64,000 nucleotides of DNA from the NCBI GenBank assembly GCA_944470555.2, contig OX104127.1, positions 25,311,661 to 25,375,660 on the forward strand, given 5' to 3'. Each line of letters starts with the position of its first letter. Within the stretch, counting starts at the first letter, position 1. This document shows positions 16,704 through 61,639 of the stretch, piece by piece. The notes under the pieces were generated by a model that worked only from the letters and a program-made list of their open reading frames with translations, searched no databases and had not been told where the DNA came from. Source of the stretch: Heterobilharzia americana (lineage: Eukaryota; Platyhelminthes; Trematoda; Strigeidida; Schistosomatidae). A program made the position numbers and the translations under genes.

Positions 16704-16706
16704 GCA

Positions 16707-18896: not shown

Positions 18897-20692
18897 GCTT
18901 ACTGAGCGAGCAGCGTCGCCCATCATTTTGTTCTTCTCCTGTTGAGCACCAAACGGGTGGTGTTAGTCGAAGGAAAGTTCTTTATTTAAATCATGGTCAA
19001 AACCCACACTTGTTTAGCAGAAGCGTTACTGCCGACCGAAGATGCAGTGGACCTCCGGGTTTATTGTTAGCTGTTTCAGGTATGTATCATTTGGGTTCGA
19101 TTGCTCCACTACCTAGCCGTTCAGGCTCAGATACCTCATTTTTAGATCGTGATTCGAATCCTTTACCTGCTACAATCGAGAACCCATTTCCTACGGAAGA
19201 CTCTTCGGTTCTCGCAGGAGAATTATGCCTTCAAAATGGGACTAGGTGTTCTGACGCCTCCAAAGAAATAAGTGATCTTCAGAGAAATAACCCTCGTTAT
19301 CTTATATCTTCAGTTTCCGGTGTGAGCAGAAGAGGTTCCACTATATCTCCTCATCGTGCTCTTAGTACTTCCCGTAAAACTGCTAGCTGGTGTAGCTCTG
19401 CACCTATTTTGTGCGAAACATCTGAACAACCACACTTGACGTGTGTGCCGTCAAATGGCCACGGATTGACAGTCATATCACCCGAAAGCAACTGTCAGTT
19501 GAGCAGTTCAAATGCGATTCGGGAGCAATGTACGCCGATACGTGAAGAGGATGATGAGGCAGCGCGCTCTGGAGAATCTCCTTTGTATAAAACATATGAC
19601 TTTTTAACTGGTTTAGGTAATCGAAGGAGGTCTGAATCTTCTAGTATGCAAACAAACTCAGCTATTTTCACAGCTTCTAATATAGCTCGTGTTGCATTCG
19701 CCACTTTGGCTGAGTCAGAATCAACATCAACTATTAGTCAGTTGCCAAATATAGGCTCCTATCCGAACCACTGTGGTGATGCTATGCAAAATGGAAGTGG
19801 TTCGCGATGCACTACATCCAATTTTTCACTAAGCTCCTTGGCAACGAGTTTACGAGATTCACGCTATATGATTGACATAATACGAGGAACATTCGAGTTA
19901 CAGTGTCAGTATAATCGTAGGTTTACAAATTCTATTGCAGGAGTTAGCAGTGGAGAATATAACTCCGATCGAGCTAGTACCTCTACATCGATGCGTAGCC
20001 TTACTGCTATATCTGAAAGCTTTTTTATGAATAATCAATTGAAAGACGACTTTATTCCACGTGATTCACACAAATTCCCTCTATATGATGGAAACCTGTC
20101 ACATCTTTCTCCAGAATCTATATCAAAAGCTTCGTCTACTTCCCATACAGTAACACATCCTGTGAATGCTTCCTTCAATTCAGATTCAGTCGGTAAAAGT
20201 TCATCTCAGTTGACTAGAATCAGCTTACCAGCTAATATAACTGAAGCACCCAACACAGAAGTTATCACATCAACCAGTCCTGTTTTAGATAGCAATGTGG
20301 GCAACTTTTCCTCTTCTTTTTCTCTTGAACAAAATTCACCGATAAGATTTGGGAATTTTTCTCATAACAATCATAGAAATGGATCCTGTAAATCTACTAA
20401 TCACTCAAATATTATGCCCAAGTATTCTCCACATATGTTATCAGAAGTTGAATTACCTAAGAATTCGAATTCCAAATGTATTTTAGACAAAGATTACAGT
20501 ATAGTGGTAAATATGAGTCAACAGATCAATAATAATAACAATGACAATAATACTATAAATAACTCTGAGATATTCAGTAGTGGAGCAGTCAACTATTGGA
20601 CGCATAAAACCAATGGACCGAATCACAAGCAAGTATCACCTTTAGCTTTTGGAAAACATAAAGCTAGACTAACTTGTTGCTCACTTTCATGA
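18818..20692 (+). CDS. SNRK: SNRK, C-terminal continuation in a shifted frame
   Basis: A 624-residue frame overlaps the end of the kinase frame (open from 18740) and runs to a stop at 20690-20692. It has no catalytic domain; it is Ser/Thr/Asn-rich, with [15 protein letters not shown] at the start, RRRSESSS near residue 268 and an asparagine run near 570. Its composition is like the C-terminal half of the upstream frame, and a gap-free frame of 1.9 kb in AT-rich DNA is strong evidence of coding. The first residues line up with the end of the kinase frame if one base is missing in the run of five T at 18831-18835. Joined, the protein would be about 1330 residues, much longer than human SNRK (765). 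An alternative is splicing: a good donor-like site CAG/GTATGT lies at 18725-18733. Transcript data would decide. Confidence 0.8.
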
Positions 20693-22505: not shown

Positions 22506-22852
22506 AAAGCTTCATGCGGTATCTTTGATTGAACTCCAGGTGATTTTTCTAAAGATATATACAGGAAAAGTATTTTTAGTATGCGGTAACTCCAGTATCG
22601 AGTGCTTTGTCCACTTCACTACTGTTAACTTTCTAGATACTCAAGTTACACGTTGTTTAGTGATTGCTGAATTTAACTTGTTTTCTAAAGTAATTTGTGA
22701 TACTATTTGATATTACTGGCACGGTTAAAGACAGTTGTATGACTCTTCAACTTGGCATATACGAAACGCCTTCAGTATGTATACGTTTCTTATTGGATAC
22801 ATTTTTCTTGATGCAAATCATTATGTATCTATTTTGAGGTTAATGGGGATTT

Positions 22853-23200
22853 TTTTCAAGGTAGTATTCATAACGGACTGAAATCAGTTGGAGAACCGTT
22901 AAAAACCTGGGAACACTGGACAGCTGTTTCGTCCTAGTGTAGGACTCTTCAACAGTGCGCAACCACCACCCCGACTCTCCAGGGACCGAACTCAAGACCT
23001 TCAGGTTCCACGGCGAACGCATTAACAATTCATCCAATGGGTCGGGTTGAGTTCATTGCTTCTGTCAATTCGCGACATAACGCAACTATCACGCAAGGTC
23101 TTCAGATGGCATCCGTTCCCCTTCCGAGTAGTTGACCCCACAGGTCACGACTTCTCATTAGAACTCCCGGATACCCATCTGGAAGCATGACACTAAGAAG
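22853..23200 (-). repeat. H1 hammerhead SINE
   Basis: On the minus strand: a body segment (23080-23200), a tRNA-like head with B-box-like sequence (23000-23040) and the hammerhead arm (22853-22960) ending in actgaaatc..cgttatgaatac, the H1 end. The hammerhead is at 22914-22959. Confidence 0.7.
22914..22959 (-). ncRNA. Hammerhead ribozyme motif, one core change
   Basis: Stem I gcactg/cagtgt, core TTGAAGA instead of CTGANGA (first C changed to T), stem II GTCC/GGAC, GAAA intact, short palindromic stem III CAGCTG and GTC cleavage triplet. Activity is expected to be reduced or lost by the core change. Confidence 0.65.
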
Positions 23201-23553
23201 CATTATATAGTAATGTATTTGGAGGTTAGTGGGGATTTGCTTCCCATAAGATTTGTTGCTTTACCCTAGTTTGGCTCTACTCAGCACACAGTAAGTCTTG
23301 TCTTCAGCCTTTAGAAAGCTGAGGTTGCAAAGATTTGAGCTTGCGTTACTAAGTTGTAACAGTTATTATCGGGTAGTTGTCTAAAATTTTAGTTGGCAGT
23401 ATTTTTAATAGTAAAACCAAGTGGTGTGAGTCCAAATTTCAAAGGGGAACCCAACTTTACGGAGTTTCAAATGGTTAATTAGAAGCTTGAAACCTTGTTT
23501 CAATTTAACAGTTTTGTATCTCTGTAGACCTTGTAGTTTTAAACTCCTTTACA

Positions 23554-25157: not shown

Positions 25158-26192
25158 ACAATTACTATTATTTATCCTTTGGGTTCCTAGTGAACACAAG
25201 GCTTCAGTAGCACATCACCATTTCACTCTGTTCTCTGCAGCCTTTTCAACCTGGCTCCACGACTGCCTGTAAGCTTTCATTTCATCCTCACACCATCTCC
25301 TTCATGTCACCGTCGGAAGTCTAATTCGTCGTTTTCCATTTGGGTTCCACTCGACGGCTTGGCCTGACGCGTGTTCTCAAATCGTCTTCTCAGTGCATGC
25401 CCAATTCAACCCATCTCCACTTTCTTCTGCATATTTGTTGGGTGATAGGTTATTGGTTGGTTGGTTCGTTGCCAGCCAGTGTTCTTTTTGCTTGTTGTTC
25501 TTATTCGAGCCATCTGATCTCCATCTTCAGTATCGAGCGAGCGTAGGCGGCAGCTGTTGATGTATGTCTGCAGTTTGTTGGAAATGCTTTTCGTAACGCA
25601 CCAAGTCTGTGAACCATCACAGAAGCACTGACATTACTGTTAAAAATCCGGATCTTGCTCTCTGTGCTGAATGGAGTGTAGTGCAGAGGATCTCCTCAGT
25701 GATGAAAGCCTGTCTTGCTTTTCCGATCCTGTCTCTGACATCCTCATCTGCGCCTGTAGTTAAAACGATGCTACCTAGGCAGGTGGGTGAAAGAGACAAC
25801 TTCCCTTCGATTTCTCCCGTTGATGGTGATTGGTGCTTTTTGTTGTTATTGTTGTTGGTTAGGTATCTTCATTACACCTGTCTTCTCTACGTTCACCTGA
25901 AGTCCCGTGTTCTTCGCTGCCTCGTCTCTTCGAACAAATTGTTGGTTTTCGCCTGTAGATCTTCGAGTTTGTGTGACAAGACATCAAACATAAATCATCA
26001 CCAGCGAAATCCAAATCATCTAGGGTCTTCTCATCGGTCAGAAAGCGCATGCCCATCTTTTCACTCCTCGCAGTTTTTTGCATGATCCAGTCTGGTCAAC
26101 CATAATCATAAAGATCAGGTAGCCTTGTCTTACTCCTATCTTCACTTTGAAGGCATCACTGAGCTTTCCATTGTAAATCACTTGGCATATAG
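25158..26192 (-). mobile_element. SR2/RTE-like retrotransposon 3' part, running into the assembly gap
   Basis: Minus strand: CQVIYNGKLSDAFKVKIGVR (26190-26100) is the RT segment that appears at 41380-41440 in the RTE copy on the plus strand; LDDLDFAGDDLCLMS (about 26020-25975) is the catalytic palm block with an extra Gly; the rest follows the tail of the same family down to an (AAT)n-like end at about 25158. It abuts the end of the RTE remnant at 23920-25150. Its 5' part is in the N gap. Confidence 0.75.
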
Positions 26193-26692
26193 NNNNNNNN
26201 NNNNNNNNNNNNNNNNNNNNNNNNNNNNNNNNNNNNNNNNNNNNNNNNNNNNNNNNNNNNNNNNNNNNNNNNNNNNNNNNNNNNNNNNNNNNNNNNNNNN
26301 NNNNNNNNNNNNNNNNNNNNNNNNNNNNNNNNNNNNNNNNNNNNNNNNNNNNNNNNNNNNNNNNNNNNNNNNNNNNNNNNNNNNNNNNNNNNNNNNNNNN
26401 NNNNNNNNNNNNNNNNNNNNNNNNNNNNNNNNNNNNNNNNNNNNNNNNNNNNNNNNNNNNNNNNNNNNNNNNNNNNNNNNNNNNNNNNNNNNNNNNNNNN
26501 NNNNNNNNNNNNNNNNNNNNNNNNNNNNNNNNNNNNNNNNNNNNNNNNNNNNNNNNNNNNNNNNNNNNNNNNNNNNNNNNNNNNNNNNNNNNNNNNNNNN
26601 NNNNNNNNNNNNNNNNNNNNNNNNNNNNNNNNNNNNNNNNNNNNNNNNNNNNNNNNNNNNNNNNNNNNNNNNNNNNNNNNNNNNNNNNNNNN
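26193..26692. other. Assembly gap (500 N)
   Basis: Exactly 500 N. The round number suggests a placeholder rather than a measured gap. Retroelement sequence enters it from the left. Confidence 0.99.
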
Positions 26693-26824
26693 CAGATATA
26701 CATAGAAATAAATTATCAAGATCCATAAACAATATTCTTTGCTGCTCATTTAAAAATCATGCCCCCAGTCAGAAACTCAATTGTCAGTAGTCAAAGGATG
26801 AGCTAAAGTATTGAGGTACATTAG

Positions 26825-26985
26825 TGTGTGCATACCAGTTTACTTGTTCTTGTGGAGCTGAGTACATCAGCCGTACTGTTCGCCAGCTTATACGATACTT
26901 CCGTGAACACTATCCAACAAGAGCAGAACGGAAGTGCATCGTTAGCTCAGGACACTTAGCTCCTTTCCATAAGTCCTTCAAAATT
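26825..26985 (+). mobile_element. GIY-YIG endonuclease fragment of a Penelope-like element
   Basis: Plus strand reads AYQFTCSCGAEYISRTVRQL followed by IRYFREHYPTRAERKCIVSS and a stop at 26989. The CSCG..YI.R pattern and REHYP fit the start of the GIY-YIG domain used by Penelope-like elements to cut target DNA. The usual YIGR is YISR. The copy is a short fragment beside the assembly gap. Confidence 0.7.
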
Positions 26986-27800: not shown

Positions 27801-28389
27801 AACGTGGAATGGATAGTAATTCAATTTGAAGGGTTGTGGCAACCGATTAATTTCAACTTGGTATAAAGTCATAAGTTCGCACTGCTGGAGAGTATGAGAT
27901 CAGGATGAAACATTTCTTTGGTGCTTCTTGGTTTTAAGTGGTCTCCCAGCTATATGTTTACATTATCCCTCTATATAAGATAGCCATTTTAAAAAAACCA
28001 TTCCTATCTTCCTTAACAGTCATTATGACATTTTCAGCGCACTGTATAAGTGACCGTTTGCTTATAAATAAACATAAACAAAAATACTGGCTTCCTGGTT
28101 CTATGAGACTGACATAACTACCAAAGTTATATCATTTATCGCACATATTTCAAGAAGCACTAATGATTGCCCATTTACAGTTTTCCTTCTAAACTGATTG
28201 ATCTGATAAAGATAAACTGTTAACATAAAAACCATGGAAAACTATGTCGATAACTGAAATTTAGGGCTGTAGGTCTAATAATTAAACCATTCCTATTAAG
28301 ATGATGTGGTTTTCGTTTCTGATAATCATATTTTCATGTTATCTATTCGCACAGTGATTGATGTAGTTTGAAGTTTATTAGGATTTTAT

Positions 28390-28622
28390 TTTCAAAGTTG
28401 CAGTCATTACAGACTGATATCAGTAGGGGAACTATTGAAAATCTGGTAGTGCTAAGAAGCTGTTTCATTCTAATGTGGTCTTTAGTCCGATCCGTGGCAG
28501 GCTTGTGGGTGCATACTGTTGAGGAGTTTCATACTGCGACGAAACATCTATCAGGCACTCCCAGGTTTTCAGTGGTTCTCCATGTGATGTTAGTCTGTGA
28601 TGAATACAACTTTAAAGATAAA
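28390..28622. repeat. H1 SINE inverted pair (foldback), degenerate
   Basis: The left arm 28390-28480 (gcagtcattacagactgatatcag ... gaagctgtttcatt) is an inverted copy of the right arm 28505-28622 (ggaggagtttcatactg ... gatgttagtctgtgatgaat). The right arm has a hammerhead-like order with core TTGAGGA and intact GAAA but weak stem II. Little of the tRNA-like centre remains. Confidence 0.6.
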
Positions 28623-29062
28623 CACTGATGGTTTTTTTATATTCACGTTATCAACACCCTTTGATGAGAATGTTTATGTTAATCAAATGAAATCTACGGT
28701 CTTCTGTTTATCTTATTGTTCTAAATTGGATAAGGATTTTATAAGGTACACTTCTAGTAGTGGATAAGTTCAATAGTTAAGAAAATGTAGAGTAATCATG
28801 TGATGTTAGAATAAACAAATGAATACTGTTTAAGTAAAACAGAGCAAATTAATTTGAAAACAATAAAAGGACACTTGTATTCTTTCCAATAAATGGTCGG
28901 TAGATTTAAACCCAGTAAATTCTACTTTTACTGACTATGCAGAAGCTTAAACGTCATAAGGATTTTTGCTGATTACGTAGTAACAAAACTTTGTAAGACC
29001 CATTACAAAAGTTAAAATACCTTAGAATACAATAATTTGGTTGGTTTCAGCTATCAGAAGAA

Positions 29063-29215
29063 TCCAAGAAGCGCGTTTTGTCCTACTTGGAACTCGTCAG
29101 CCGGATGTACCTGCACCTCAGAGATGTCGTGCTCACTGAGACTCGAACCTCGTACCCATCACTTCAAATGCCAAGGCGTTATCCACTATGCCAAGGAAGA
29201 ACGATAGCCGCTTCT
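29063..29215 (-). repeat. H2 (Sm-alpha-like) hammerhead SINE
   Basis: Minus strand: tRNA-like head with gttcgagtctcagtgagc, then ggtacatccggctgacgagtt and ggacaaaacgcg. The core CTGACGA, stem I and stem II are fine, but GAAA is AAAA (the G of the core is lost), so cleavage is unlikely. Confidence 0.7.
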
Positions 29216-29954
29216 TGTATAATGGGTAGTAGTCATTACTATTTATTAACATACTTGTTATTCTCCTTCATTTTATTGGATCGGACAATAACAAGTATAT
29301 CAATAAATACTTATACCTTAGAATACAGTTAAAATGAATGCAGGGATGATATTGTATTAACTTTGGTTATTGCATTTCAAGACAATGGAGTAATGAGAAG
29401 TTAATAGGAATAAAGGAACAATCTCAGTAGATGATAATATTAGTAATGAACAAAAAGAGGAAGGAAAATGTGTACTATTTGGACTTATGAACCAGAGTAT
29501 ATTCATTCAACTAAATTTAATTATTCCACCTATATGTGATCCTTGTTTGGATGGCTATAAAATACCATGAGTTTCATTTCTATTTGATGACTGAAATTTT
29601 AATTCAGTATGCTTATTTTGTCATGTTTAAGGGTTGTCATCTTTTATACCTCGTTAGGCTAGTTGTTAGTATCGTCTAGGATTTGAGTAAATCCATGTGA
29701 TGATTACCGCATAATTATTTACATATGTTCTATGAGGAAACACTCAGACAAGAACGGTACACTTTCTGTTATGCATGTTACTTCTTGACATCTTGCTGTC
29801 AGGTTTGCATTTTTAACGTCTACTTTGCATCGACTAATTTCTTCATGGTAGTTATTGAGAATTTTTCACAGTTCTTTGTAAATTCGGAACTACTAGCAGT
29901 CGACGTTAGTAGTAAGAGACTGTATGCGACCTATGTGTTTAGGAGTAAAGCATA

Positions 29955-32509: not shown

Positions 32510-33500
32510 TCATCTCATTCCAAGTGTCCTTGATCATGCAACAAACGGTGACGACCGAGAAGATGGGCATACGCTGGACTGAGAAAATGATCCTAGAAGA
32601 CTTGGATTTCGCCGGTGACTTGTGTCTCATATCACACAAACTTGAAGATCTACAGGCAAAAACTAACAACTTGGCAGAAGAAGCGAGACAGCGAACACGG
32701 GACTTCAAGTGAACGTAGAGAAGACAGAGGTGATGAAGATACCCAACAAACACCACCACCACCACCACGAACAACAACAACAACAAGCTCCAATCACCAT
32801 CATCATTGAGAGAAACTTGAAGGAAGTAGCCTCTTTCACCTACTCACTTAGGCAGCACTGTCTCAACTACAGGCGGCACAGACGATGATGTCAAAGCTAG
32901 CCAGGATCGGAAAGACAGCAAGACAGGCGTTCATTAACCTGAAAGTAGTGTGGAGATCTCCTCCACTGCACTCAGTATGTGGAACGATATCCATATTTTC
33001 AACACCAATGTCAGTCAAGTCAGTGCTTCTGTATGGTTCAGAGACTTGGCGAGTTACGAAAAGCATTTCCAACAAACTACAGATATGCATGACATCAACA
33101 GCTGCCGCCCACGCTTCCCCGATATCGAAGAAGGAGATCAGATGTCCAGAATAATAAGAATAAGCAAGAAGAAACTCTGGCTGACCCCACAACAAACCAA
33201 CCAAGAAGCTATCGCTCAACCAATGTGTAGAAGGAAGTGGGGGTGGATTGGGCATGCACTGAGAAGGCCAACTGAGGACATCACGCGTCAGGCCAGGCCC
33301 TCTATTGGAACCCCGATGGAAAACGGCGAGTTGGGCGTCCGAGGTGGAGGTGACATGGAGATCATGTGAGGAAGAAATGAGAGCATATGGGCAGTCGTGG
33401 AGCTAGGTTCGGAAGATTACAGAGAAGAGAGTGAAATGGAGGCGTGCTACTGAAGCGGTATTTTCTACTAGGAACCCATGGGTCAAATAATAAATATAAA
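32510..33500 (+). mobile_element. SR2/RTE-like retrotransposon, 5'-truncated copy (R1)
   Basis: Plus strand: LEDLDFAGDLCLISHKLEDL (32597-32655; the DD pair is GD), then VEKTEVMKIPN followed by a run of six His and a Gln run (about 32718-32790), RNLKEVASFTYSLR, KARQAFINLK, NTNVSQVSASV and REDLAS-like remnants, KWGWIGHALRRPTEDITRQA (33237-33297), to aggaacccatgggtcaaataataaat at the end. This is the RT thumb and tail of the same family as 39165-42490. Multiple frameshifts; dead. 5' truncation is typical of target-primed insertion. Confidence 0.8.
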
Positions 33501-34747: not shown

Positions 34748-35395
34748 ATTAGTATTCGCCACAGACTGACACCAATTGGAGAACCACTGAAAACCTGGGA
34801 GCATTGCACAGCCATTTCATCCAAGTATGCTACTCCTCAGTAGTACGCACCCACGATGTCCCAAAGGAAGGAAGTTTGTACCTTCAGATTTCACGACAGA
34901 CACGTTAACCGTTCAGCCATTGGGTTGGAGTTCACTAGTTCACAGTCTCTTCTTTCTGTCAGTTCGCAATATAGAACGACTACTAACTGAAGAATGAAAT
35001 TCTTGTTAGCATCAAAATGCATTACCCCTTTGTGCTGATTGGTGAAATGCTTAGAGATGGATATCCCGAAGTTTTATTGAGAAACCATGACTAGTTGGGT
35101 CAACCAGTCGGTTGTGAAGTGAATGTCAACTGAAGACCTTAGTGGATAGTTGCGTTACGTCATGAATTGACCGAAGTGAGGAACTGAAGAACACTGAACT
35201 TCGGTACATTGTTTGAAAGATTAACGTATTCGTCATGAAATCTGAAGATCCTAGATTCAATATTTTATGGGTCCGTTAATGCATACTGCTGAGGATTCCA
35301 GTACTAGGACGAAACATCTCTTCAGTGCTCCCAGGTTTTCACTAGTTCTCTAACTGATGCCAATCCATGATGAATACTACCGTAAAAGTAGAATC
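34748..35395. repeat. H1 SINE inverted pair with body segments (648 bp foldback)
   Basis: The left copy (34748-35000, minus) and right copy (35090-35395, plus) each contain the H1 end (attcgccacagactgacacc / gatgccaatccatgatgaat), a hammerhead arm, the tRNA-like part and part of the body. Left hammerhead (about 34793-34845): core CTGAGGA and GAAA intact, but cleavage triplet GTG. Right hammerhead (35281-35330): core CTGAGGA and GAAA intact, with a weakened stem II. Confidence 0.65.
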
Positions 35396-36961: not shown

Positions 36962-37166
36962 TATTATTATAAATGTCATTAGTTGGCATCCACTTTACAT
37001 CGGACTTGTTTGACTCGACGGGTTATCACTTCCCACTTGATCTTTGGGATTACATCTCAGCAGTGCACACGGTTGAGGAAACCTATACTGGGAAGAAACT
37101 AGTGTCCATTGTTCCTAGGTTTTTAGTGGTTCACCAATTGATGTCATTTTGTGATGAATACACATT
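36962..37166 (+). repeat. H1 SINE, degenerate, plus orientation
   Basis: Body segment (tggcatccactttacatcgg) then the arm gtgcacacggttgagg ... agaaactagtgtccattgtt and the H1 end (gatgtcattttgtgatgaat). The hammerhead core is lost. It ends exactly where the large palindrome begins. Confidence 0.6.
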
Positions 37167-37223
37167 TCAAGTTGTTATTCATCGCAGACTGACATCAATT
37201 GGAGGAACAAAGGAAACCTGGGA

Positions 37224-37269
37224 GCACTGGATAGCTGTTTCGTCCTAGTATAGGACTCCTCAGCAATGC
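37224..37269 (-). ncRNA. Hammerhead ribozyme, core intact
   Basis: Minus strand: stem I gcattg/cagtgc (one G-U pair), core CTGAGGA, stem II GTCC/GGAC, GAAA and cleavage triplet ATC. The outer pair of stem III is C-A instead of C-G, so stem III is weaker than in the plus-strand partner. Core fully consensus. Confidence 0.75.
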
Positions 37270-37519
37270 GCGCCTACCACCACGCACCACAGAGATCGAA
37301 CCCGTGACCTTCCGGTTCCGCGGCCAGAGCATTACCATTGAGCCACTGGGTCAGAATCCAATGCTCCATATTGCCAACTTCTGTTAGCTCACTGTATAGT
37401 GCAACCAGAAGTTGGCAATATGAAGCATTGGATTCTGACCCAGTGGCTCGATGGTAGCGCACTGGCAGCGGAACTCGAAGGTCACGGGTTCGACCTCTGT
37501 AGGGCGGGGTCGTGGGTGC

Positions 37520-37565
37520 GCACTGCTGACGAGTCCCGTACTAGGACGAAACAGCTGTCCAGTGC
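37520..37565 (+). ncRNA. Hammerhead ribozyme, fully consensus
   Basis: Stem I gcactg (37520-37525) pairs with cagtgc (37560-37565). Core CTGACGA (37526-37532), stem II GTCC/GGAC with a seven-base loop (37533-37547), GAAA (37548-37551), very short stem III CAGCTG and cleavage after GTC at 37559. Every invariant base of the hammerhead core is present. The tiny self-complementary stem III is like that of the known schistosome hammerheads, which may work as dimers. Confidence 0.85.
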
Positions 37566-37621
37566 TCCCAGGTTTTCTTCGTTCCTCCAGCTGATGTCAG
37601 TCTACGATGAATAACAACTTG

Positions 37622-39050
37622 AACTATATTCAAATCTACACAATTCCCTCAGAATACACATTTCCCTATCCATATGCAACACGAAGAATAAAAACGCTAG
37701 CAGTTGTTCTAACGAGAACAACAAACAATTCACAGCATGAATTTACCTCCTATAGGGTGATGAATGATGAAACTAATCTCTATTTTATATTAATTTTATG
37801 TATTTTTTTCCATATTTCACCTTGGCATAGCAATAAAGTTGGCTGGGGTCAGAATTACACCCTGTTAGTAGATTTTAACTAGACGAATTAACGTTGAATT
37901 TTTTAGAATTATTGTTTAATGTCTATTCGACTGTAGATAATAAGCATTTACTATTTTCTAAAAGTAATAACTTATTAGTCATTCATCCGTTAATCACTGA
38001 ATGGTTGAAAATTTATTGAAAAGGTAAATAAAGCGAAAATGAATGAAATGAACTGAAACCAGTTGGCGTAGTTAACAATATACACACAGTCCATTTCCTT
38101 TCTATAACTTATTGAAAAGATGATGAAATGGGAGATGTGATTGTTTCATTAAACTATCAGTAAACGAAATAATGTCAAAATATTTAAATCAATAAAACGT
38201 CATGTGTTTTTATACAATTAAAATGAAGAACAGTTGTGCATCACTTATTCATCGGTTAGTTAGTCAAGAGAACTGAACTGTTTAAAACGTTTTGAGCTAC
38301 GGTTTTTATTAGTTGATCAATAGGGGGAGGGGATCAGTATGGATTCTGCCAAAATTAAGGAGTATTCTATTAATTTATGTTTGAAACCAGCAACGACAGG
38401 GTCTGCAGTACGGTGGTGTATCAAATGAGCTACGAGAAAAGCTTTCTATTTCACTGTATTCACTAAAGGTTTTACTCTCTACTGCCATGTGAATTCATGA
38501 GGTGTTACTTTCACTGTACTTGAATTAGAGAGAGGGGGGAATATCGTATTGATAATCAGTTTGACTGTCTGTGATAGCTGTAGTTTGGCAAACTACTATT
38601 GATATTGGGTAATGATTGAAGGTGAAATGAAAATATGAGCTACGAGAGGATTTGAACGAGTCTGCTAAAAGATAGCTATTTTGGATAGTCAACTTGATGA
38701 AATTTATGTTAGCTGTATTGAGTCAATGTTAATATGGACCCTCATGGAAGTGATATTTAGGTGAGTATTCTTTATGCAGTCCAATTTTGCGATGACATGC
38801 TTTTGAATTATCAGTATTACTCAGATTATTCAGAATATGTGTTGTAAAAATGAAATAAATCATCATGAGATGAAATACTTAATAGTAGTCAATAGGTAAA
38901 AAAGATCTTGCATTGCCTTCGAATTGCTCAAGCTGTCACTTTTCGATGAGTTCAAAAGAAGAAGATAATTACCAATTTATATTGCTCTTATAATTAGTGA
39001 TATTTCTGCATTTCACCTTTTCAAAAATATTCTTATCACATTAATTTTAT
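37622..39050. other. Intergenic DNA with a faint tRNA-like SINE trace (38590-38690)
   Basis: No coding signal. At 38600-38665 the order atgattgaaggtgaaatgaa, then ggatttgaacgagtc resembles the minus-strand SINE at 57030-57160. Confidence 0.4.
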
Positions 39051-40840: not shown

Positions 40841-41600
40841 GTGAACATAAATCCTCCAACAAAAGTGGAAGTCCTGAACGCCATGAAGCTACTGAAATGT
40901 GGGAAAGCAGCAGGACCAAATAAAAGTACCGCCGGATGCACTGAAAGCAGACGCGGACAGTGGACAACAGCAGACATGCTCACACCACACCACTATTGCA
41001 GAAGGTGTGGAAGGAAGAGAAGGTACCTGCCCATTGATTGGAAGAAGGGTTACCTTGTCAAACTCCCGAAGAAGGGAGACCTCGGTGTTTGCAAGTACTG
41101 GAGAGGAATCACTCTCCTGTCCACCCAGAGCAAGCAAAATATGAAGCCGCATCATCCTGGAGAGGCTAAAGGATGCACTGGATTCAAAACTACGACCGGA
41201 ATAGGCAGGCTTCAGTAAGTACAAATCATGTGCAGACCAAATTACAACGCTTCGCATCATCATAGAACAGGGTACAGAATGGCAGTCAACCCTCTACCTC
41301 AACTTCATCGACTTTGAGAAAGCTTTCGACAGCGTCGACTGAGAGGTAATTTGGAAGCTGCATATGAAGACGCCACATGCCAAGTAATTCACAATGGGAA
41401 GCTCAGTGATGCTTTTGAAGTAAAGACAAGAGTAGGACAAGGCTGTTTACTATCACCCATGATATTCCTGATTGAGGTGAAATGGATCATGCAGCAGACA
41501 ATAGTGGGGAGCGAGAAGAGGGGGAAACGCTGTCTGGACTGCGGAAGAGAACCTAGAAGACTTGGATTTCGCCGATGACTCGTGTCTCATATCACACAAA
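40841..41600 (+). pseudogene. RTE reverse transcriptase (R2), broken
   Basis: Blocks seen: PPTKVEVLNAMKLLKCGKAA (40853-40915), YLPIDWKKGYLVKLPKKGDL (41022-41082) with YWRGITLLS (about 41098-41125), LNFIDFEKAFDSVD (41300-41340, catalytic Asp kept), ATCQVIHNGKLSDAFEVKTR and VGQGCLLSPMIF (41375-41470), and DLDFADDSCLIS (41556-41592, DD pair kept). The catalytic residues survive, but stops (after FDSVD, and in the DFADD frame) and several frameshifts prevent a full protein. Confidence 0.8.
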
Positions 41601-42410
41601 CTCGAAGATCTACAGGCAAAAACTAACAACTTGGCAGAAGAAGCGAGACAGCGAACACGGGACTTCAAGTGAACGTAGAGAAGATAGAGGTGATGAAGAT
41701 ACCCAACAAACACCACCACCACCACCACGAACAACAACAACAACAAGCTCCAATCACCATCATCATTGGGAGAAACTTGAAGGAAGTAGCCTCTTTCAAC
41801 TACTCACTTAGGCAGCACTGTCTCAACTACAGGCGGCACAGGCACAGACGACAACGTCGAGGCCAGCCAGGATCGGAAAGACAGCAAGACAGGCGTTCAT
41901 TAACCTGAAAGTAGTGTGGAGATCTCCTCCACTGCACTCAGTATGTGGAACGATATCCATATTTTCAGCACTAACGTCAATCAAGTCAGTGCTTCTGTAT
42001 GGTTCAGAGACTTGGCGAGTTACGAAGGGCATTTCCAATAAACCCTAGACATTCATCAACAACTGTCTACTCTGGCTTGTTACTGAAGATCGGCTGACCG
42101 GAAAGAATGAGCAACAAGGGACTCTTGGAACGAACCAACCAAGAACCTATCACCCAACAGATATGTAGAAGGAAGTGGAGATGAATTGGACATACACTGA
42201 GAAGACTGACTGGGGACATCACGCATCAGGCAAGGTTGTTGAGTGGAACCCCGATGGGAAGCGATGAGTTGGGCGTCCGAGGTGGGGGTGACATGGAGGA
42301 GATCGTGAGAGGAGGAAATGAGAGGTTGTGGGCTGTTGTGGAGCCAGGTTGAAAAGATTTCAGAGAACATAGCGCATCGGAGACGTGGTACTTAAGCCCT
42401 ATGTTCCATT
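41600..42410 (+). pseudogene. RTE post-RT tail (R2) with in-frame His/Gln expansion
   Basis: VEKIEVMKIPNK is followed by six His codons (CAC) and an EQQQQQ run (41711-41750), then RNLKEVASFNYSLRQHC. Related members lack or shorten this run. The tail ends in LGTQGT before the (AAT)n tract. This section is nearly identical to 45134-45467 on the minus strand. Confidence 0.7.
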
Positions 42411-42426
42411 AGGAACCCAAGGGACA

Positions 42427-42450
42427 AATAATAATAATAATAATAATAAC

Positions 42451-42620: not shown

Positions 42621-42809
42621 CATCACTTGAACCTCTAAAACACTTACTGCTACCTTAAAAAGCTCACCATAAAATGTTTAAGTATTTGTTATAATCATTA
42701 TTTACTTATTTATTCAGGTTGTGTGCAGCTGATGAAAACCTATGAAGTAAAGTGATACCATCTTACTCGGCAAATGGTGTTTTTGGTATAATTGTTTCTA
42801 TACCATACC

Positions 42810-43115
42810 GTCGTTGATTGGAATGAACTGATCGGTCTCCATTGACATATGGGTTCCTGTGAGGATGCCTAGATATTACCCGTGCTCCAGTGATAGTAAT
42901 GCTGGATAGTGGCTAGCAATGTAATCCGTGATGAGCATTTCGTCTTATTTGCGACTCGTCAGTTGGATGTACCTGCTTCCCGGTGAGTGATGTTTTTCCC
43001 ACTGGGATTCGGACTCGGGAGCAATCGTCTCAAATACCAAAGTATTACCCACTACACCACCCAGCCGTGATAGCGACTTCTTGTGGATTCCACTGCTAGT
43101 TGCTATCCATCATTA
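42810..43115 (-). repeat. H2 (Sm-alpha-like) hammerhead SINE
   Basis: Minus strand: tRNA-like head with A box (tggtgtagtgggtaat) and B box (cgagtccgaatcc), then cactcaccgggaagcaggta and the hammerhead (42924-42968), and a long H2 end (to 42810) with ggcatcctcacaggaaccca. The short tandem end tggattccactgctag at 43090-43105 is repeated in inverted form near 42905-42928. Confidence 0.75.
42924..42968 (-). ncRNA. Hammerhead ribozyme, core intact (H2)
   Basis: Minus strand: core CTGACGA, stem II GTC/GAC with AT-rich loop, GAAA, stem III TGCTCA and cleavage triplet ATC, all consistent. Stem I has four pairs (ATCC/GGAT) and two mismatches next to the core, so folding may be weak. Confidence 0.65.
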
Positions 43116-43384
43116 CTAAAATGGTGTTTCTATTAAGTCATTCAGTATCAAAATAATTGAAGTCATAGAGAATATTCATGATATTTTATCAAGAATTAAA
43201 TTTCAATGGTTCAAAAAGTCATAACTCTCAGCCTTGACTCCAGTTTGAATTTCAAAACCTAAAATCACAATTTTAACGCGAAATTGTAAAGTCTAATCCA
43301 TACCTTGGTTCATCAGTTTAATCTTCTCAACACTGTACTACTTCATAAAAAAACATATATTTCCCCCGAAGTCAACTGGATGCA

Positions 43385-44546: not shown

Positions 44547-45645
44547 GGCTGAAAGCTATTATTATTATTATTTGTCCTTTGGATTCCTAGTGGAACATAC
44601 CGCTTCAGTAGCACTTCTCCATCCCACTCTGTTCTCTACAATATTTTCAAACAGGCTCCACAACAGCCTAGAAGCTCTTATTTCTTCCTCACACCATCCC
44701 TTCCATGTCACCCTCGCCTTGGACGCCCAACTCATCGTTTCCCCTTTGGATTCCATCAGAGCGCCTGGCCTGGATTCACCTGGAGTGTGGTGTCCCGAAA
44801 TGGTCTTCTCAGTCTATGTCCAATCCAATCCATCTTCACTTTTTTCTGAATACTTGTTGGGTGATAGGTTCTTGGTTGGTCCGTTGTGGGGTAAGCCAGA
44901 GTTCCTTCTTGCTTATTCTTATTATTCTGGACATCTGATCTCCATCTTCGCTATCGAGTGAGCGTGGGAGGCAGCTGTTGATGTCATGCATATCTGTAGT
45001 TTGTTGGAAATGCCCTTCGTAACTCGCCAAGTCTCTGAACCATACAGAAGCACTGACTTGATTGACGTTAGTGCTGAAAATATGGATATCGTTCCACATA
45101 CTGAGTGCAGTGGAGGAGATCTCCACACTACTTTCAGGTTAATGAACGCCTGTCTTGCTGTCTTTCCGATCCTGGCTGGCCTCGACGTTGTCGTCTGTGC
45201 CTGTGCCGCCTGTAGTTGAGACAGTGCTGCCTAAGTGAGTAGTTGAAAGAGGCTACTTCCTTCAAGTTTCTCCCAATGATGATGGTGATTGGAGCTTGTT
45301 GTTGTTGTTGTTCGTGGTGGTGGTGGTGGTGTTTGTTGGGTATCTTCATCACCTCTATCTTCTCTACGTTCACTTGAAGTCCCGTGTTCGCTGTCTCGCT
45401 TCTTCTGCCAAGTTGTTAGTTTTTGCCTGTAGATCTTCGAGTTTGTGTGATATGAGACACGAGTCATCGGCGAAATCCAAGTCTTCTAGGTTCTCTTCCG
45501 CAGTCCAGACAGCGTTTCCCCCTCTTCTCGCTCCCCACTATTGTCTGCTGCATGATCCATTTCACCTCAATCAGGAATATCATGGGTGATAGTAAACAGC
45601 CTTGTCCTACTCTTGTCTTTACTTCAAAAGCACCATTGAGCAATT
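44547..45645 (-). mobile_element. SR2/RTE-like retrotransposon 3' part (R3), near-identical inverted copy of R2
   Basis: Minus strand from about 45645 (GKLSDAF-type RT segment, truncated) through DLDFADDSCLIS (about 45480-45450), the His/Gln expansion (45290-45335) and tail to the (AAT)n end at 44547-44575. The open frames at 45134-45373 and 45231-45467 encode exactly the same residues as 41669-41908 and 41575-41811. The copies differ more toward the 3' end (44560-45000). It is 5'-truncated. Confidence 0.85.
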
Positions 45646-46240: not shown

Positions 46241-46584
46241 TTGTTCCTGAATTTCGACTGGAAGTTTCCCAAATACACACTGCGACTATTCAGTCCATTT
46301 CTAGCCCTACAATCGACCCAGCATTTCTCCTTGGAGTATTCTGTATTCACAACCTAATATTGACCTCTTAGCTAATTTAAGGCTCATTTGTTTGTTTGTT
46401 ATTACTATAAATCTGATGGTACAGGTACTGAAAATCATTCGTTGAAAAGAAAATTCACTCATATTGTCACAATATTTAGATAGAGATTTTGCACCCATAA
46501 TTTCGTTTACTCCCGTTACCAATTACCTGCATACATAACCTTCTTTTCTGTAACAATCCATGTATCTACTGTTATTGCTTGTAA

Positions 46585-46870
46585 GACACCGTCGTTGACT
46601 GGACCGAATTGATCAGTCTCTGTTGGCATATGGGCTCCTGTGCGGATGCTTCGATATTGCCTGTGTTTTGATTATAGTAATGATGGATAGTGGCTAGCAG
46701 TGGTGTAGTGGGTAACGCTCTGGCGTTTGAAACGATCGCTCCCGAGTCCGAGTCTCGGTGGGAACAAAATCACTCACTGGGAGGCAGGTACATCCAGCTG
46801 TCGAGTCTCAAATAGGACGAAATGAGCATCCTGGATTCCACTGCTAGCCACTGCCCATCATTACTATACA
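46585..46870 (+). repeat. H2 hammerhead SINE with short inverted left end
   Basis: A left segment (46665-46705, gatggatagtggctagcag) is an inverted copy of the right end (ctgctagccactgcccatca, 46841-46860). Between them: A box (tggtgtagtgggtaacgc), B box (cgagtccgagtctcg) and the hammerhead at 46792-46836. The upstream part 46585-46665 repeats the H2 end seen at 42840 and 61640. Confidence 0.7.
46792..46836 (+). ncRNA. Hammerhead ribozyme motif, one core change (H2)
   Basis: Stem I ATCCAG/CTGGAT perfect, core CTGTCGA (A changed to T against CTGANGA), stem II GTCT/GGAC, GAAA, stem III TGAGCA and cleavage triplet ATC. Likely inactive because of the core change. Confidence 0.65.
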
Positions 46871-47520
46871 TTATCCATGTATCTAATCAGATTATTATTA
46901 TTATTGATAAGTGCCTTTTCGCCGAAGAACTCTGTTTCATGATATTTGCAAATGTATGAAGTATCTAAAGTGACTTTTATAACTAATAAAAACTGGTAAA
47001 GGAAAACAATGGTCTGATTTAGTCAACTGATTCTTGAATGATAACGTTTCACTGAAGATAACTGACAAACAAAATTTTCATATCCATTTACAGAGTAATA
47101 AAGTCAAGATAATTGCTTCCTATCACATTGTGTCATTTCATTCATAGTAATTCAGTATACACCAACCACTTGTTACAGTAATCTCAGATTAAATCCAAGC
47201 TTTAGTTTTCATGAATTGCATTGATGTGTGAGTAGAATATGCTCATCAAGTTGTAATTCGCTATTGAATGGTTTTAAATGGTGAACCTAGCTTTTTACTT
47301 ATAAATACTTATCAAGAAGCTGTATGTGTACCCTTGACTACTCTGTAGCCAATAGCTTTTTCAGCTGAATTTAGTAACCTTGACTAATTGCGTAAAAGGT
47401 CAAACTGTCTCACAGGTGAATATCTGGCAGTAAGGTTTGCTTTCTAATATCATAGGCGGAAGGTACTTATTTCAGTAAAGTGTTCACAATAAATGTTATT
47501 CTATCGTATACATTTCCAAA

Positions 47521-48085: not shown

Positions 48086-48439
48086 CTTCACATAGGTATA
48101 GCTGGTTGCCTACTGCATTAATTTACTCATGGTTGATGAATGTATTTCAGCATTTTTCCAAAGTAGTTTTTAAAATAAACATCTAGTGACTCACAGGTGT
48201 TGCTTCATCAGGAACATTAATGTAGCCACTGTTTGCAAATGGTGAGAAGAAATCAGTAGATAGCTCAATATTTATTTTGTGCTTGATGACACTTATCAGT
48301 GAAGTGTATCTGTAATCCCATGAGAACAGATGCTCTTCTTAAGGTCTAAACTTGTGTTACGAAAGGCTGTTATCAAATATGTAAATCTGACAAGAACAGC
48401 TGATGGAACGTTAAGTAGATCAATTCACAGAAAATCAAT

Positions 48440-49160
48440 GTAGAATGGTCAACTGACGGACTTTAGTAGCTGGATCCATGTGAGTCGTAAGCGAAATCTG
48501 ATCATATCTCTTACCACTCGCATTAGACCAACTTCCAGTCCTATTGCGTTAGAAGAGGAAATTTTCGTCCTAAAGAACATCTTGATTGAAAATGAATTCC
48601 CACCACACTTCATAGACAAAAATATCAAACCTAAACCTTGCAAAGAGAACCTTAGCACTATGTCAAAAGGACACTTTATATGAATCTAAACTTCAAAAAT
48701 GATTCTGCCACTAAGACTCCGAAAGGGAGGATATCAAACACTCTCAGAAGAACATTCTTTGCATCAAAGCTGAGACTAGTATTCTGTTGCCCCCCAATGA
48801 TTTCTCATAACTCAAAGGAGAAACTTTCACATTTGACCACTTCTATGTACATATATTAGTTCACCTACTCTTGTTAAACCAGGTATATAGGTCTTTCGAT
48901 GCTACTGTTATCCCGTGTGGTTAAAAACGGGTAACAATGGAACGATAAGGAATGCTATAACTGAACACATTTTGAACATGAATCATCTTACCTCAAAAAC
49001 CTCCTAGTTCAAAGTCATATAAAAAGTGAAAATAAACCTTCCAAAAGCTAGATATCTTCATATTCTCTGCATTGCCGAAGCTCTTGTCATCCATGTAGAG
49101 AAGCCTAAACTGTGTGCACAAAAGAATATTGTTCAACCACTCCTCCTTTCTTGATCTCAG
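48440..49160 (+). mobile_element. Penelope-like element remnant: RT tail and endonuclease
   Basis: Plus strand: RKRNLIISLTTRIRPTSSP followed by EEIFVLKNILIENEFPPHFI and DKNIKPKP (48483-48640) is the post-RT segment of Penelope-like elements (family: NILI.NGYP..FI). A decayed GIY-YIG part follows with TRYIGL (about 48880) and later stops. It shares the segment with the minus-strand copy at 14640-15470. Confidence 0.7.
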
Positions 49161-51200: not shown

Positions 51201-51344
51201 CGGATCTATGTTGCCTCAAAAGAAGCATAGGTACTCTCCCTTAAACATCGTAGCTTGGCTTATGATGAAATGACTCATGACAGGTTTCTATACGAAGCTA
51301 GGAAGTCACAATACTCCTTGAATATTCATTATGTCGTAGATTAA

Positions 51345-51725
51345 TTGGTGGTGGCTAAAAGTAGGACCCACAACGCGTGTTTCATCCTATTCGGGGTTCT
51401 TCAGTGAGTGATAATTTTCTCACTGAAACTCGAGGCCAGTGGCCACCGCCCCAAGCGCCAAGGCGTTATCTACTGGACCACTGAGGCATGACAGCCAATG
51501 TAACAGCAGGAAACCACAAGAATCAATAAACAACAGACACCCTTCTAAAAAAGGGTGGCTTTCACATCTCAGTGGCCCAGTTGATGACGTTTTGGAGTTT
51601 GAAAAGGTGGTTACTGGGTTCAAGTGTCACTGGGAAAATCATCACTCATAAGGGTGTAGGCATATCCAGGTGACGAGTCTCAAATAAGATGAAACTTGCG
51701 TCCTGGATTTCACTGCTACTCATCA
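51345..51725. repeat. H2 SINE inverted pair (foldback)
   Basis: Left copy (minus, 51345-51495) and right copy (plus, 51555-51725) are inverted to each other. Left: tRNA-like head with A box (tggtccagtagataacgcc) and damaged hammerhead. Right: ccagttgatgacgttttgga head, B box (gggttcaagtgtc), hammerhead 51663-51708 with core GTGACGA, GAAA and perfect stem I. Neither core is intact. Confidence 0.7.
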
Positions 51726-52356
51726 TCGAGTAAACTACAATTATCATCCTCAACCTTAGCTACAAATCTATTCTACTATCTCAGTCTTTTGTTCTGCCTC
51801 TGATTCGGCACCGTTTTTGCTATTTTAAAATCCAATGTTATGTATTCTTTTTGAGTGAATCTTTACCAGTCGACTGTCATCACATACGACATTGCTACGT
51901 ATACTGCTGATATGCATTCTTATAAGTAGCTCTCACTACATAGTTTGTATGAATTGTCACTTGATAATTTCAATAAAAACCTACTAAACACCCCTATTCT
52001 GAATGGCTGGCTTTTATTCATTGTACATATGCCGTAATATCAAATGTTACCTTCCGCACCCATTAAAAGTTCTCTATGTTGTTAAGTTTATATAGGAGTA
52101 GTCTGTGAGATAACAGTCGGCCTCTTGCGTATTCCTCTATGTACGGATGTCAACATTGGCTAGTGTATATGCATACTTAAACAGAACTGTGATATCTGTA
52201 CTGGCTAAATGAGTTTAGATACTAGCTGACTTTATGGCCCCTAGTCTCTTGCTAACCTAATGCAGTAAGCCAAATCGCAACAAATTTAATTCTGTTGTTT
52301 GATTATGATTCCTAGCAATTAACAAATAACTAACTGCCCATCTACTCGCCAACCCA

Positions 52357-52914: not shown

Positions 52915-54640
52915 TTGACTAAATGATGTCTCGAACAGAATTTACTTCTGAAATTTATATCAAAAGGATCGTACCTGTCTTAGTTCTTCATAGTTCTAAC
53001 ACTTTTATATTATTTGATTTAACTGACAGGAGAATTCCACATAAATCTAGAGTCGATGTTAAATCCCTCCTAATACATGTGTTGGACGATGAGTTGGTAG
53101 AGAGAGACTCATTGATCAACCAATTTCTCCACTAAGCTACAATAATCTTCAGGACTGTCAGTCTTGGTTGTGTTATGTTCTCTGAGCCAAGTTGTTTAGT
53201 CGTGGAGCTTTCATCATCTTGCTAGACGACATCATCAGGACTAACTTCAGTATGGAAAGAGTTGCCAATATCAATATCAAATTCACAACGGAGAAGGAGT
53301 CAAACAACTAACTATTATTCCTAGATGTTTTAGTCAGTATGGAAAATGGCGGGAAAATGGAAACTCAAGTTTGCCGGAAGCCAACACACTCTGATCAAAT
53401 CCTCAGCTACAATAGCCACAACCCAACGACACACAAAATCAGTTGCGTGCAGACTCTATTCAAAAGAGCGAGAACACACGCAGTACAACAACTTCACTGA
53501 GAAACGAAGAAAATTACTTCATGTCCATTCCAAAGAAGAATGGCTACCCACAAAGCTTCATTAGAAGATGCCTATACCGTACAGCATCATCTACAAAGTT
53601 ATCAACAGAAGTCAACAAATGCTTCATCCTACCATACATAACGAATTTATCAGAGATCATGACAAGAATTACTGAAACCACTGGGAATTGGTGCGGTTCA
53701 TAAACCAACAACTCCCTTCAAACCCTACTATGCAGACCAAAGCACGCAATAACCAAAGAAGACAAACCAAATATCATTCACAAAATCAACTGCAATAAGT
53801 TTGATCAACACTACATTGGACAAAGTGGTAGCCTCTGTCCACCTTCCTCTTATATAAACGCCAATTGACGATTAAACTTTACGACATCTCATCTCATCAG
53901 TCAGCAATCCATAGATGTATAGACATAGACCCAATGTAGCAAGCAATAAGGAGAATGGTAAACGACGAAAAGGTCAGCAGTCAAGCAGAAATACAGGCAA
54001 AAGGAAAATCTATGCAGTCAACGACATAACAATCAAAGGAAACAACCAATCACAAACCAGTTCGTCAGGTCAAGCTAATAAGTAACTCATGGAGAGATAT
54101 TGACAGCTCACTTCATACTGAAATTAGTGCTGAAGATGTCATCTAGAAAGACGATTAAAGCTCCACGACTAAACAACCAAGCTCAGAGAACATAATGACG
54201 TGAAGACCATCCACTTGAGCTACAAATATTCCCCACCATTTGAAAATCATACGGACTGTCAGTCTGTACCATTCAATCACATGGTTTTGTTTTATTGTAT
54301 CCGTAACTATGATTAGAGTTTCGTCTAGATTACTCATCTTGGTAGGGTCTACCGCTCTAGACTTAGCCAGATTCCTATGTTCTATTGATCTCATCAACCC
54401 CATCCTAACGATTAATTTAGCTAAGTGGCGAAGGAGGTCGATCATTGAATCTCTACTCATTAACTCAAGGCCTAACATGTGTAACATGAGTGACCTAACA
54501 CTGATTGCAAAAATGTGAGAGGTCATTCTACAAATCAAATCAAAGAATATAAAAGCAGTAAAACTATGAAATACTAAGACATGAAGTTGTGTGATTCCTT
54601 TGATATGAATATGAGAAATAAACCGTGCTTGCAAAGTTAT
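52915..54640 (+). mobile_element. Penelope-like element flanked by inverted terminal repeats
   Basis: The left end 52915-53265 and right end 54105-54640 are inverted copies: translated in corresponding frames they give VLVLHSSNTFILFDLTDRR on the left (plus) and VLVFHSFTAFIFFDLICRM on the right (minus). The inner ends share gttgtttagtcgtggagctt. Between them lie RT and endonuclease remnants on the plus strand. Terminal repeats in inverted order are known for Penelope-like elements. The right end has about 190 extra bases. Confidence 0.7.
53260..54150 (+). pseudogene. Penelope-like RT C-terminus and endonuclease, broken
   Basis: Plus strand: LLFLDVLVSMENGGKMET then VCRKPTHSDQILSYNSHNP (53312-53415), the block after the RT palm (family: FLD..V....Y.KPTHTD.YL...S.HP). 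KNGYPQSFIRRCLY and ILPYITNLSEIMTRITE follow in another frame (53545-53680), and DQHYIGQSGSLCPP (about 53803-53845) marks the GIY-YIG start. At least two frameshifts and several stops. Confidence 0.75.
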
Positions 54641-54839
54641 CTAGTGAATAATACTGGATTACTGTATGCTATATCAAATAGACTAATCTAATATGAAGTT
54701 ACACTCTACGACTATTTTTTATGACACTCGTAATTTCCCGTTGCTGTACAGGGCGGAATTGCTCGACCTCTGCTGTTGACAGATAGGTTTCTATGTGGAT
54801 GACTCGATACTGCCAGATATTCAGGATCTTATATTCATG

Positions 54840-55070
54840 TTGGTGACTAGCAGCGGGATCCAGTATTAGCTTTTCGTCCCATTTAAGACCCTTCAGCCTG
54901 TAATCGTGCCTTGGTGGATAGCACTTTGACGTTTGAAGCGATGGGTACTGGGTTCGAGTCTCAGTGGGAACAACATCACTGACTGAGGTGCAAGTACATC
55001 TAAACGACGAGTCATAAGTAGGACAAAACACACGTCCTGGATTCCTGTGCTAGTCACCAGTATGAATATA
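54840..55070. repeat. H2 SINE inverted pair (foldback), partial left arm
   Basis: The left arm 54843-54899 carries a minus-strand hammerhead remnant (core CTGAAGG, stem II GTC/GAC, GAAA). A tRNA-like centre follows with A box (tggtggatagcactttg) and B box (gggttcgagtctc), then the right arm (54985-55070) with core CGACGA and AAAA for GAAA. Both motifs are dead. Confidence 0.65.
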
Positions 55071-55271
55071 ACGCCCCAACACATTGTCCAAAGTCTGTAC
55101 TTACCTTACTGTTTACACCTATTCTTAATAACTTCATGAAACTCATTATGTAATATGATGCATATCACTAGCGAAACAGAATATATTTGATTATTTTTGT
55201 CACAGGATGAAAAGATGATTTCATATTTAGCCAAGAAAGCAAACATTAAATCAAACAATAAAATAACAAGT
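55071..55271. other. Intergenic DNA, no supported feature
   Basis: AT-rich, nothing recognised. Confidence 0.3.
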
Positions 55272-55577
55272 TGTTATTCATCGTAGACTGACATCAGTTA
55301 AAAGAATAAAAGAAACCTAGGAGCACTGGACAGCTGTTTCGTCCTAGTATGGGACTCCCCAGCAGTGCGCACAGAAGTTGGGGATATGGAGCATTGGATT
55401 CTGACCCAGCGGCTCAATGGTAACGCGCTGGCCACGGAACCCGAAGGTGGTGGGTTCGACCCCCCGAGTGGTCGGGGGTGCGTACTGCCAAGGAGTCCCA
55501 TACCAGGACGAAACAGCTGTCCAGTGCTCCCAGGTTTCCTTTGTTCCTCCAACTGATGTCAGTCTATGATGAATAAC
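55272..55577. repeat. H1 SINE inverted pair (foldback)
   Basis: The left arm 55272-55373 is an inverted copy of the right arm 55478-55577; the tRNA-like centre is present once (55374-55477) with A box (cggctcaatggtaacgcgct) and B box (gggttcgacccc). Left hammerhead 55323-55368 (minus): core CTGGGGA, all stems perfect. Right hammerhead 55482-55527 (plus): core CCAAGGA, all stems good. Both have GAAA and GTC, but changed first core strands. Confidence 0.8.
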
Positions 55578-61634: not shown

Positions 61635-61639
61635 TTGAT

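Follow-up and report, generated by a model that had tools for sequence, protein, structure and literature searches.

What sort of event leaves two mirror copies of a SINE at a single genomic site? The question is raised by a palindrome near 37 kb of the stretch of Heterobilharzia americana DNA analysed here, which is 64,000 nt in its entirety ('the window' in what follows). An initial annotation had described this palindrome as two inverted copies of a tRNA-headed SINE, with an intact hammerhead on each strand. As argued below, the reading moderately favoured is that the palindrome arose in a single insertion, with both strands serving as primers and two RNAs as templates, and with the enzyme probably of the Penelope-like (PLE) type.

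Layout of the 37-kb palindrome

The palindrome is confirmed as a genuine feature of the sequence. A repeat search pairs 37166-37388 with 37401-37623 at 88% complementarity, and the two arms proper (Table 1), both of them full length and both including the 3' region, are 88.5% identical, with each beginning at its 5' end with CAGAAG. The description as two inverted, tRNA-headed SINE copies is borne out. The 454-bp palindrome likewise lies where it had been placed, but what had been described as a 24-base loop is a spacer of 22 nt. Nor is 37621 the end of the structure, as had been supposed, for the plus arm reaches 37651, i.e., 31 nt past the minus arm's stopping point. A 13-bp repeat abuts both arms directly, enclosing the pair as one block. 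The left copy of that repeat overlaps the tail of an older family-A fragment, 37062-37161, and this fragment is taken to be the target of the 37-kb insertion.

Table 1. Features of the 37-kb palindrome, the other tight head-to-head pairs, and PLE remnants, in positions of the window
Feature	Position	Strand	Details
Target-site duplication, left copy	37156-37168		13 bp, GAATACACATTTC
Minus arm, family-A hammerhead SINE	37169-37383	-	stops at short 3' site (...AACAACTT)
Hammerhead type I	37224-37269	-	34.7 bits (gathering score 34); ATC triplet, C.A mismatch in stem III
Spacer between head-to-head 5' ends	37384-37405		22 nt; 5' ends CAGAAGTTGG
Plus arm, family-A hammerhead SINE	37406-37651	+	stops at long 3' site (...ATTCCCTCA)
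Hammerhead type I	37520-37565	+	45.6 bits (gathering score 34); predicted cut 37559/37560
One-sided 3' tail of plus arm	37621-37651	+	31 nt; minus arm without tail
Target-site duplication, right copy	37652-37664		13 bp, GAATACACATTTC
Second family-A pair	55256-55631		CAATAAAATAACA at 55256-55268 and 55619-55631
Arms of second family-A pair	55269-55371, 55372-55618	-, +	minus arm stops short near hammerhead's 5' edge; plus arm full
Older family-A pair	28384-28645		arms 28394-28478 (-) and 28483-28623 (+); imperfect repeat, 10/11
Family-B pair (Sm-alpha-like)	46556-46885		ATCCATGTATCTA at 46556-46568 and 46873-46885; hammerhead in plus arm, only the tail in minus arm
Family-B pair	42772-43129		AAATGGTGTTT at 42772 and 43119; full minus arm with long tail, plus arm reduced to its tail
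Family-B pair	61582-62145		hammerhead in both arms; weak repeat, 9/11
Family-B head-to-head pair	54726-55072		minus arm begins near hammerhead; no duplication found
Family-B head-to-head pair	51339-51732		54-nt spacer; no duplication found
PLE remnant, RT C-terminal part, two frames	53273-53670	+	tblastn stretch at 53.3 kb, E 1e-11
PLE GIY-YIG endonuclease remnant	61141-61326	-	tblastn E 0.002
Weaker PLE remnant	48381-48647	+	tblastn E 1e-4

Hammerheads and promoters

The Rfam model Hammerhead_1 is matched 11 times in the whole window. Both motifs of the 37-kb palindrome exceed the RF00163 gathering cut-off of 34, the minus motif barely so, and the expectation of a hammerhead core in each arm is upheld by this covariance-model check (45.6 and 34.7 bits). 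The stronger claim of an intact hammerhead on each strand holds for the plus arm, which has all of its core bases and all of its stems, but not for the minus arm, in which the core bases are kept while ATC in place of GTC gives rise to a C.A mismatch in the 2-bp stem III. With the hammerhead fold imposed, the plus motif has a calculated energy of -8.6 versus -3.5 kcal/mol for the minus motif, i.e., the latter is weaker by about 5; the unconstrained minimum-energy fold of plus and minus motif alike is something other than a hammerhead. The minus hammerhead would, on these predicted folds, probably be weak as a ribozyme.

Relative to the consensus, the A and B boxes show 0 and 1 mismatches in the minus arm and 1 and 1 in the plus arm. 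That is, the boxes are divergent in direction and within 0-1 mismatch of that consensus, as anticipated for tRNA-like promoters that point outward. The B boxes of family B are weak by the same standard (2-3 mismatches), and ARAGORN found no tRNA.

The double form might itself be a mobile or functional unit, with a read-through hairpin RNA either feeding small-RNA silencing or moving as a unit. The read-through RNA (483 nt) has a predicted fold of -373.9 kcal/mol, with 84% of its bases paired. The internal promoters point outward, however, so that a transcript of the unit would need an outside promoter. Nor are the two young family-A pairs, at 37 and 55 kb, mutual copies. Compared over the region common to all, any two of the four young arms are 87.5-89.6% identical, that is, they are star-like, and 0 sites divide them 2:2, from which it follows that neither pair was copied along with the other from one master pair. 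Given those sites and the unlike junctions, copying of the pair as a unit is rejected for these two young pairs, and as an explanation of the double form the mobile unit is deemed highly improbable.

Recurrence of the double form

Profiles for nhmmer were built for two families, A and B, the latter Sm-alpha-like, and gave 17 A and 15 B matches. Thirty of these were kept after removal of one B match (E 0.087) and of one A match, 46699-46823, that fell within a B copy. Among tight same-family neighbours (up to 75 nt apart) of these 30 copies there are 8 head-to-head pairs, 1 tail-to-tail pair, and 0 head-to-tail pairs. The head-to-head loci are at 28, 37, and 55 kb in family A and at 42, 46, 51, 54, and 61 kb in family B. 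The double form had been viewed as a single oddity, a view that these 8 tight pairs in two SINE families do not sustain; it is instead a real, recurrent insertion form of known elements in this window, all pair counts being those of one 64-kb window. The initial annotation, which had a hairpin RNA in mind, mentioned neither these further pairs nor the duplications nor the difference in 3' ends between arms. Pattern scans of viral contigs and genome contigs gave 0 matches.

Might the arms be two independent insertions, head to head by accident? The window is dense in these SINEs, and SINE copies do land on one another, as seen with the older fragment that holds the left 37-kb repeat. Random placement, however, gave a mean of 0.39 head-to-head pairs and a maximum of 5, with 8 or more reached in 0 of 20,000 trials, while randomizing orientation at the observed places reached 8 in 1 of 20,000, these nulls being uncorrected for any bias from profiles that had as their source the arms of five pairs (37 and 55 kb in A; 42, 46, and 61 kb in B) and that may favour the detection of arms. 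Chance neighbours are rejected on the basis of the random placements. At four loci, furthermore, one exact repeat encloses the whole pair, which also speaks against independent insertions, and these accordingly are considered very unlikely.

Palindromes can be mis-assembled. With several independent pairs, having different junctions, diverged arms, and duplications of their own, an assembly artefact is rejected and its likelihood negligible.

Duplications around whole pairs

Exact repeats of 11-13 bp enclose 4 of the 8 tight pairs, that is, repeats of 13 bp at 37, 55, and 46 kb and of 11 bp at 42 kb. Two further pairs have imperfect repeats, at 28 kb (10/11) and at 61 kb (9/11), with the score of the latter barely over that of the chance-level matches which were all that the flank search gave at 51 and 54 kb, i.e., at the two pairs having no duplication. 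As a control, an exact 13-mer was common to 23 of 20,000 random flank pairs with windows of the size used at 37 and 55 kb, and to 1 of 20,000 pairs with 25-nt windows, the 46-kb repeat having come from windows larger than those in this control. In random 45x35 windows a score of at least 10 was seen in 0 of 300, the 42-kb repeat scoring 11. For the more widely spaced pairs of family A (23 and 35 kb) and for the 27.4/28.6 combination, no enclosing duplication was found.

Eight single copies were tested for repeats as well. An exact repeat of 15 bp was found at 29 kb and one of 16/17 at 23 kb (two overlapping rows), both in copies with a longer 5' leader, and no convincing duplication was found at 27, 36, 39, 46.1, 50, or 59 kb. 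The 29-kb copy, a family-B element at 29017-29327, has in addition to its 15-bp repeat a 70-nt fold-back of its own on its 5' side (29240-29309). In the 23-kb copy, a family-A element at 22836-23238, the 5' leader is 160 nt long, is absent in young copies, and is partly common to 35012-35223.

Unequal 3' ends

The two arms of an exact-repeat pair stop at different 3' sites, here called short and long. In positions of the family references, the short end is at 28 (37 kb) and 27 (55 kb) in family A and at 26 (46 kb) and 24 (42 kb) in family B, while the corresponding long ends are at 59 and 64 and at 130 and 125. The one-sided tail is thus 31 nt (37 kb) and 37 nt (55 kb) in the young A pairs and about 100 nt in family B. 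As these references were drawn from these same copies, the argument rests on end points rather than on match scores. The weakly anchored pairs have short and long ends in the same direction: at 28 kb one arm has a short end at 28 and the other reaches 35 plus 15 unaligned bases, i.e., a diverged tail longer by about 22 nt, and at 61 kb the values are 21 plus 7 unaligned versus 111 plus 21 unaligned. The 23-kb single copy stops near the short site (position 32), and the tail of the 29-kb single copy aligned poorly. Counted from the predicted hammerhead cut, the long end of the young A pairs is 92 nt further on at 37 kb and 97 nt at 55 kb. The family-A tail reads MNNNL and might conceivably be the beginning of a PLE reading frame.

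These ends bear on the possibility of snap-back, in which one cDNA folds back and primes its own copy, resulting in an inverted repeat. Self-priming has been proposed for rotifer Penelope elements, and PLE head-to-head inverted structures with junction palindromes have been reported (both in the extract of PMC3846280); the 55-kb junction is itself an 8-bp palindrome, GTGCGCAC. From snap-back one would expect the same 3' end in both arms, but the arms end differently in the 4 exact-repeat pairs as well as in the 2 weakly anchored ones. One would expect also that arms be identical at birth, whereas divergence between arms is 11-12% and yet the three exact 13-bp duplications agree at 39/39 positions. 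The chance of such identity at 88% is about 0.7%, by a hand calculation that is biased in that exact repeats were what was sought, and with the arm overlap at 46 kb being small. Snap-back is, in sum, quite unlikely.

Where the arms meet, both are full at 37, 51, and 61 kb. At 55 and 54 kb one arm breaks off close to the 5' edge of the hammerhead, and at 28 kb within it. At 42 and 46 kb one arm is reduced to its tail and starts, as judged by eye, no more than about 4 and 7 nt away from the predicted hammerhead cut. That 2 of 5 shortened arms start near this predicted cut, small numbers though these are, hints at hammerhead-cut RNAs as templates.

Proposed two-strand priming and a probable PLE link

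The head-to-head arrangement, the one repeat around the pair, the two alternative 3' ends, and the recurrence in two families are observed. A single event of the favoured kind, with priming from both strands, could proceed as follows. An endonuclease would nick both target strands about 13 nt apart, and each resulting free 3' end would prime reverse transcription on its own SINE RNA, with the short internal site as the starting point for one cDNA and the long site for its counterpart. These cDNAs would then converge and their ends be joined, at times before one of them had reached the 5' end of its RNA, with fill-in of the staggered break giving rise to the duplication. Hammerhead cleavage would separate the head of the RNA from the region in which reverse transcription starts, but need not be required for insertion. 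Tentatively, the arms that consist of a tail alone (42 and 46 kb) could stem from RNAs cut by the hammerhead.

This two-strand, two-start scheme resembles what is reported for a PLE protein, making a PLE of the fluke the likeliest supplier of the enzyme. In work with a PLE protein purified from a lizard element, both strands were cut as well as extended, and two internal start sites define a tail of 30-40 nt (PMC11167929). Those start sites are 111-118 nt into the ORF and the hammerhead cut is at 26 nt, i.e., the sites are 85-92 nt past the cut (PMC11167929), as compared with the 92 and 97 nt of the SINE long ends. A rotifer PLE, in turn, has inverted pLTRs, mostly head to head, with a 31-bp tail on one copy and a 9-bp duplication around the whole (extract of PMC3846280). 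The young A pairs carry this PLE-type insertion signature, that is, head-to-head copies within one duplication and a one-sided tail of 30-40 nt. Less in keeping with a PLE are the family-B ends, about 100 nt apart and so outside of 30-40 nt, and the roughly 22-nt A tail at 28 kb. In the lizard assay, too, start sites did not differ between top and bottom strands (PMC11167929), whereas in the SINE pairs each strand seemingly has its own site.

The window itself holds PLE remnants (Table 1). Among 113 candidates for one RT fragment of the window, 1 had E <= 1, namely P0121 (685 aa, E 8e-6), which has RVT_1 and PF26215 domains as well as GIY-YIG-like text and which served as the tblastn query against the window. 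PF26215 is a domain that we take to be a mark of Penelope-like proteins. No intact PLE was found in the window, nor any reading frame with RT plus GIY-YIG inside the 37-kb pair; when the PLE region was scanned with Pfam, the single match was sub-threshold and irrelevant. It is from the likeness in insertion structure, and not from a sequence common to a PLE and the SINE tails, that we infer a PLE as the probable enzyme source for the SINE pairs. Put more broadly, it is a plausible but still tentative proposition that the hammerhead SINEs of schistosomes owe their movement to a PLE enzyme which acts in trans on both nicked strands, with two separate RNAs and two different internal start sites, so as to leave two mirror copies per event.

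Weak matches to the GIY-YIG part of PLEs occur also at 15072-15215 and 26818-26931. Continuation of the 54-kb B arm into a PLE frame was considered but unsupported, as the 161-aa frame in question (54155-54640) had 154 word-sharing candidates, 0 of them with E <= 1, and the PLE-like stretch is too close to the hammerhead.

SINEs with a tRNA head are usually mobilized by LINEs, and the same double insertion could in principle be the work of a LINE enzyme, either through some variety of twin priming or with both nicks used as primers. In twin priming, one RNA is copied in two separate portions. Inverted insertions are reported to result from L1 twin priming, and LINE-type endonuclease and RVT_1 domains are present at 6.9-9.3 kb of the window. 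At 37 kb, however, both arms are full length and both hold the 3' region, contrary to LINE twin priming, and the tail signature is reported to be unique to PLEs (PMC11167929). Near the LINE domains there is no nhmmer match to a SINE profile, with the LINE 3' ends undelimited, and among nhmmer matches in the window there is no retroelement partner that shares the SINE 3' end. A LINE enzyme is viewed overall as an unlikely source of the pairs.

Relation to known elements

The Sm-alpha and Sj-alpha SINEs of schistosomes are, like the elements here, dispersed and SINE-like, with a type I hammerhead (extract of PMC8490949), and for family B, scores against the Rfam type I model reach 56 bits. For Sm-alpha and Sj-alpha neither a double head-to-head form nor a two-ended 3' tail is found among the matches listed, so far as extracts of those sources go, and for head-to-head double hammerhead-SINE insertions generally there are none in the literature among the matches listed, in titles and abstract openings. 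For W-elements, what is mentioned is inverted repeats inside the element and not double insertions (extract of PMC8490949). The initial annotation's remark that the inverted double form is not a described standard one is consequently fair for hammerhead SINEs, among the literature matches listed, but the same layout has been described for PLEs (extract of PMC3846280).

PLEs (Penelope/Poseidon, Perere-10 clade) share with the pairs considered here the head-to-head copies in one insertion, the optional one-sided tail of 30-40 nt, the one duplication around the whole, and a hammerhead that is upstream of the start site (extracts of PMC3846280 and PMC11167929). Unlike PLEs, the SINE is non-coding and has a tRNA-like head, and the two ends in family B are separated by their own, greater distance. 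Animal non-LTR retrozymes, as with the SINEs here, are short non-coding repeats with type I hammerheads (extract of PMC7229834). Retrozymes, however, are arranged in tandem, head to tail, and give rise to circular RNAs, while none of the 30 copies here has a head-to-tail neighbour at a distance of up to 75 nt.

PLEs have been named a strong candidate for mobilizer of retrozymes (extract of PMC7229834); that paper never uses the word 'inverted' in its main text. Animal hammerhead repeats are described as having no conserved motif that would betray the mobilizing reverse transcriptase (extract of PMC7761336). If double insertions recur and their 3' ends fall at two defined sites, that would be such a revealing mark, and the question of the mobilizer would become testable by genome counts. 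The double form would then, if the proposed scheme is true, be a fingerprint that names the long-sought mobilizer of animal hammerhead elements, and the pairs would offer natural records of the both-strand priming that has been reported in vitro for one PLE protein (PMC11167929).

Other features of the window

A repeat of about 1.0-1.1 kb is present in four copies that are 71-88% identical (41401-42442, 44557-45641, 32532-33499, and 25161-26188). Two copies form an inverted pair about 2.1 kb apart, and two have reverse-transcriptase-like text, with an FADD motif at 41568 and 45474. About 500 N at 26193-26705 apparently represent a gap or mask. Another palindrome, of 95 nt (16084-16178), is 78% self-complementary and is outside of the hammerhead-SINE matches. 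Long open frames extend over 16704-20692, the first of which (16704-18893) has a protein kinase domain with SNRK-type relatives; among named relatives Opisthorchis viverrini has the top score (65% over 89%), and Schistosoma margrebowiei has the top identity (97% over 37%), in keeping with a schistosomatid fluke as host.
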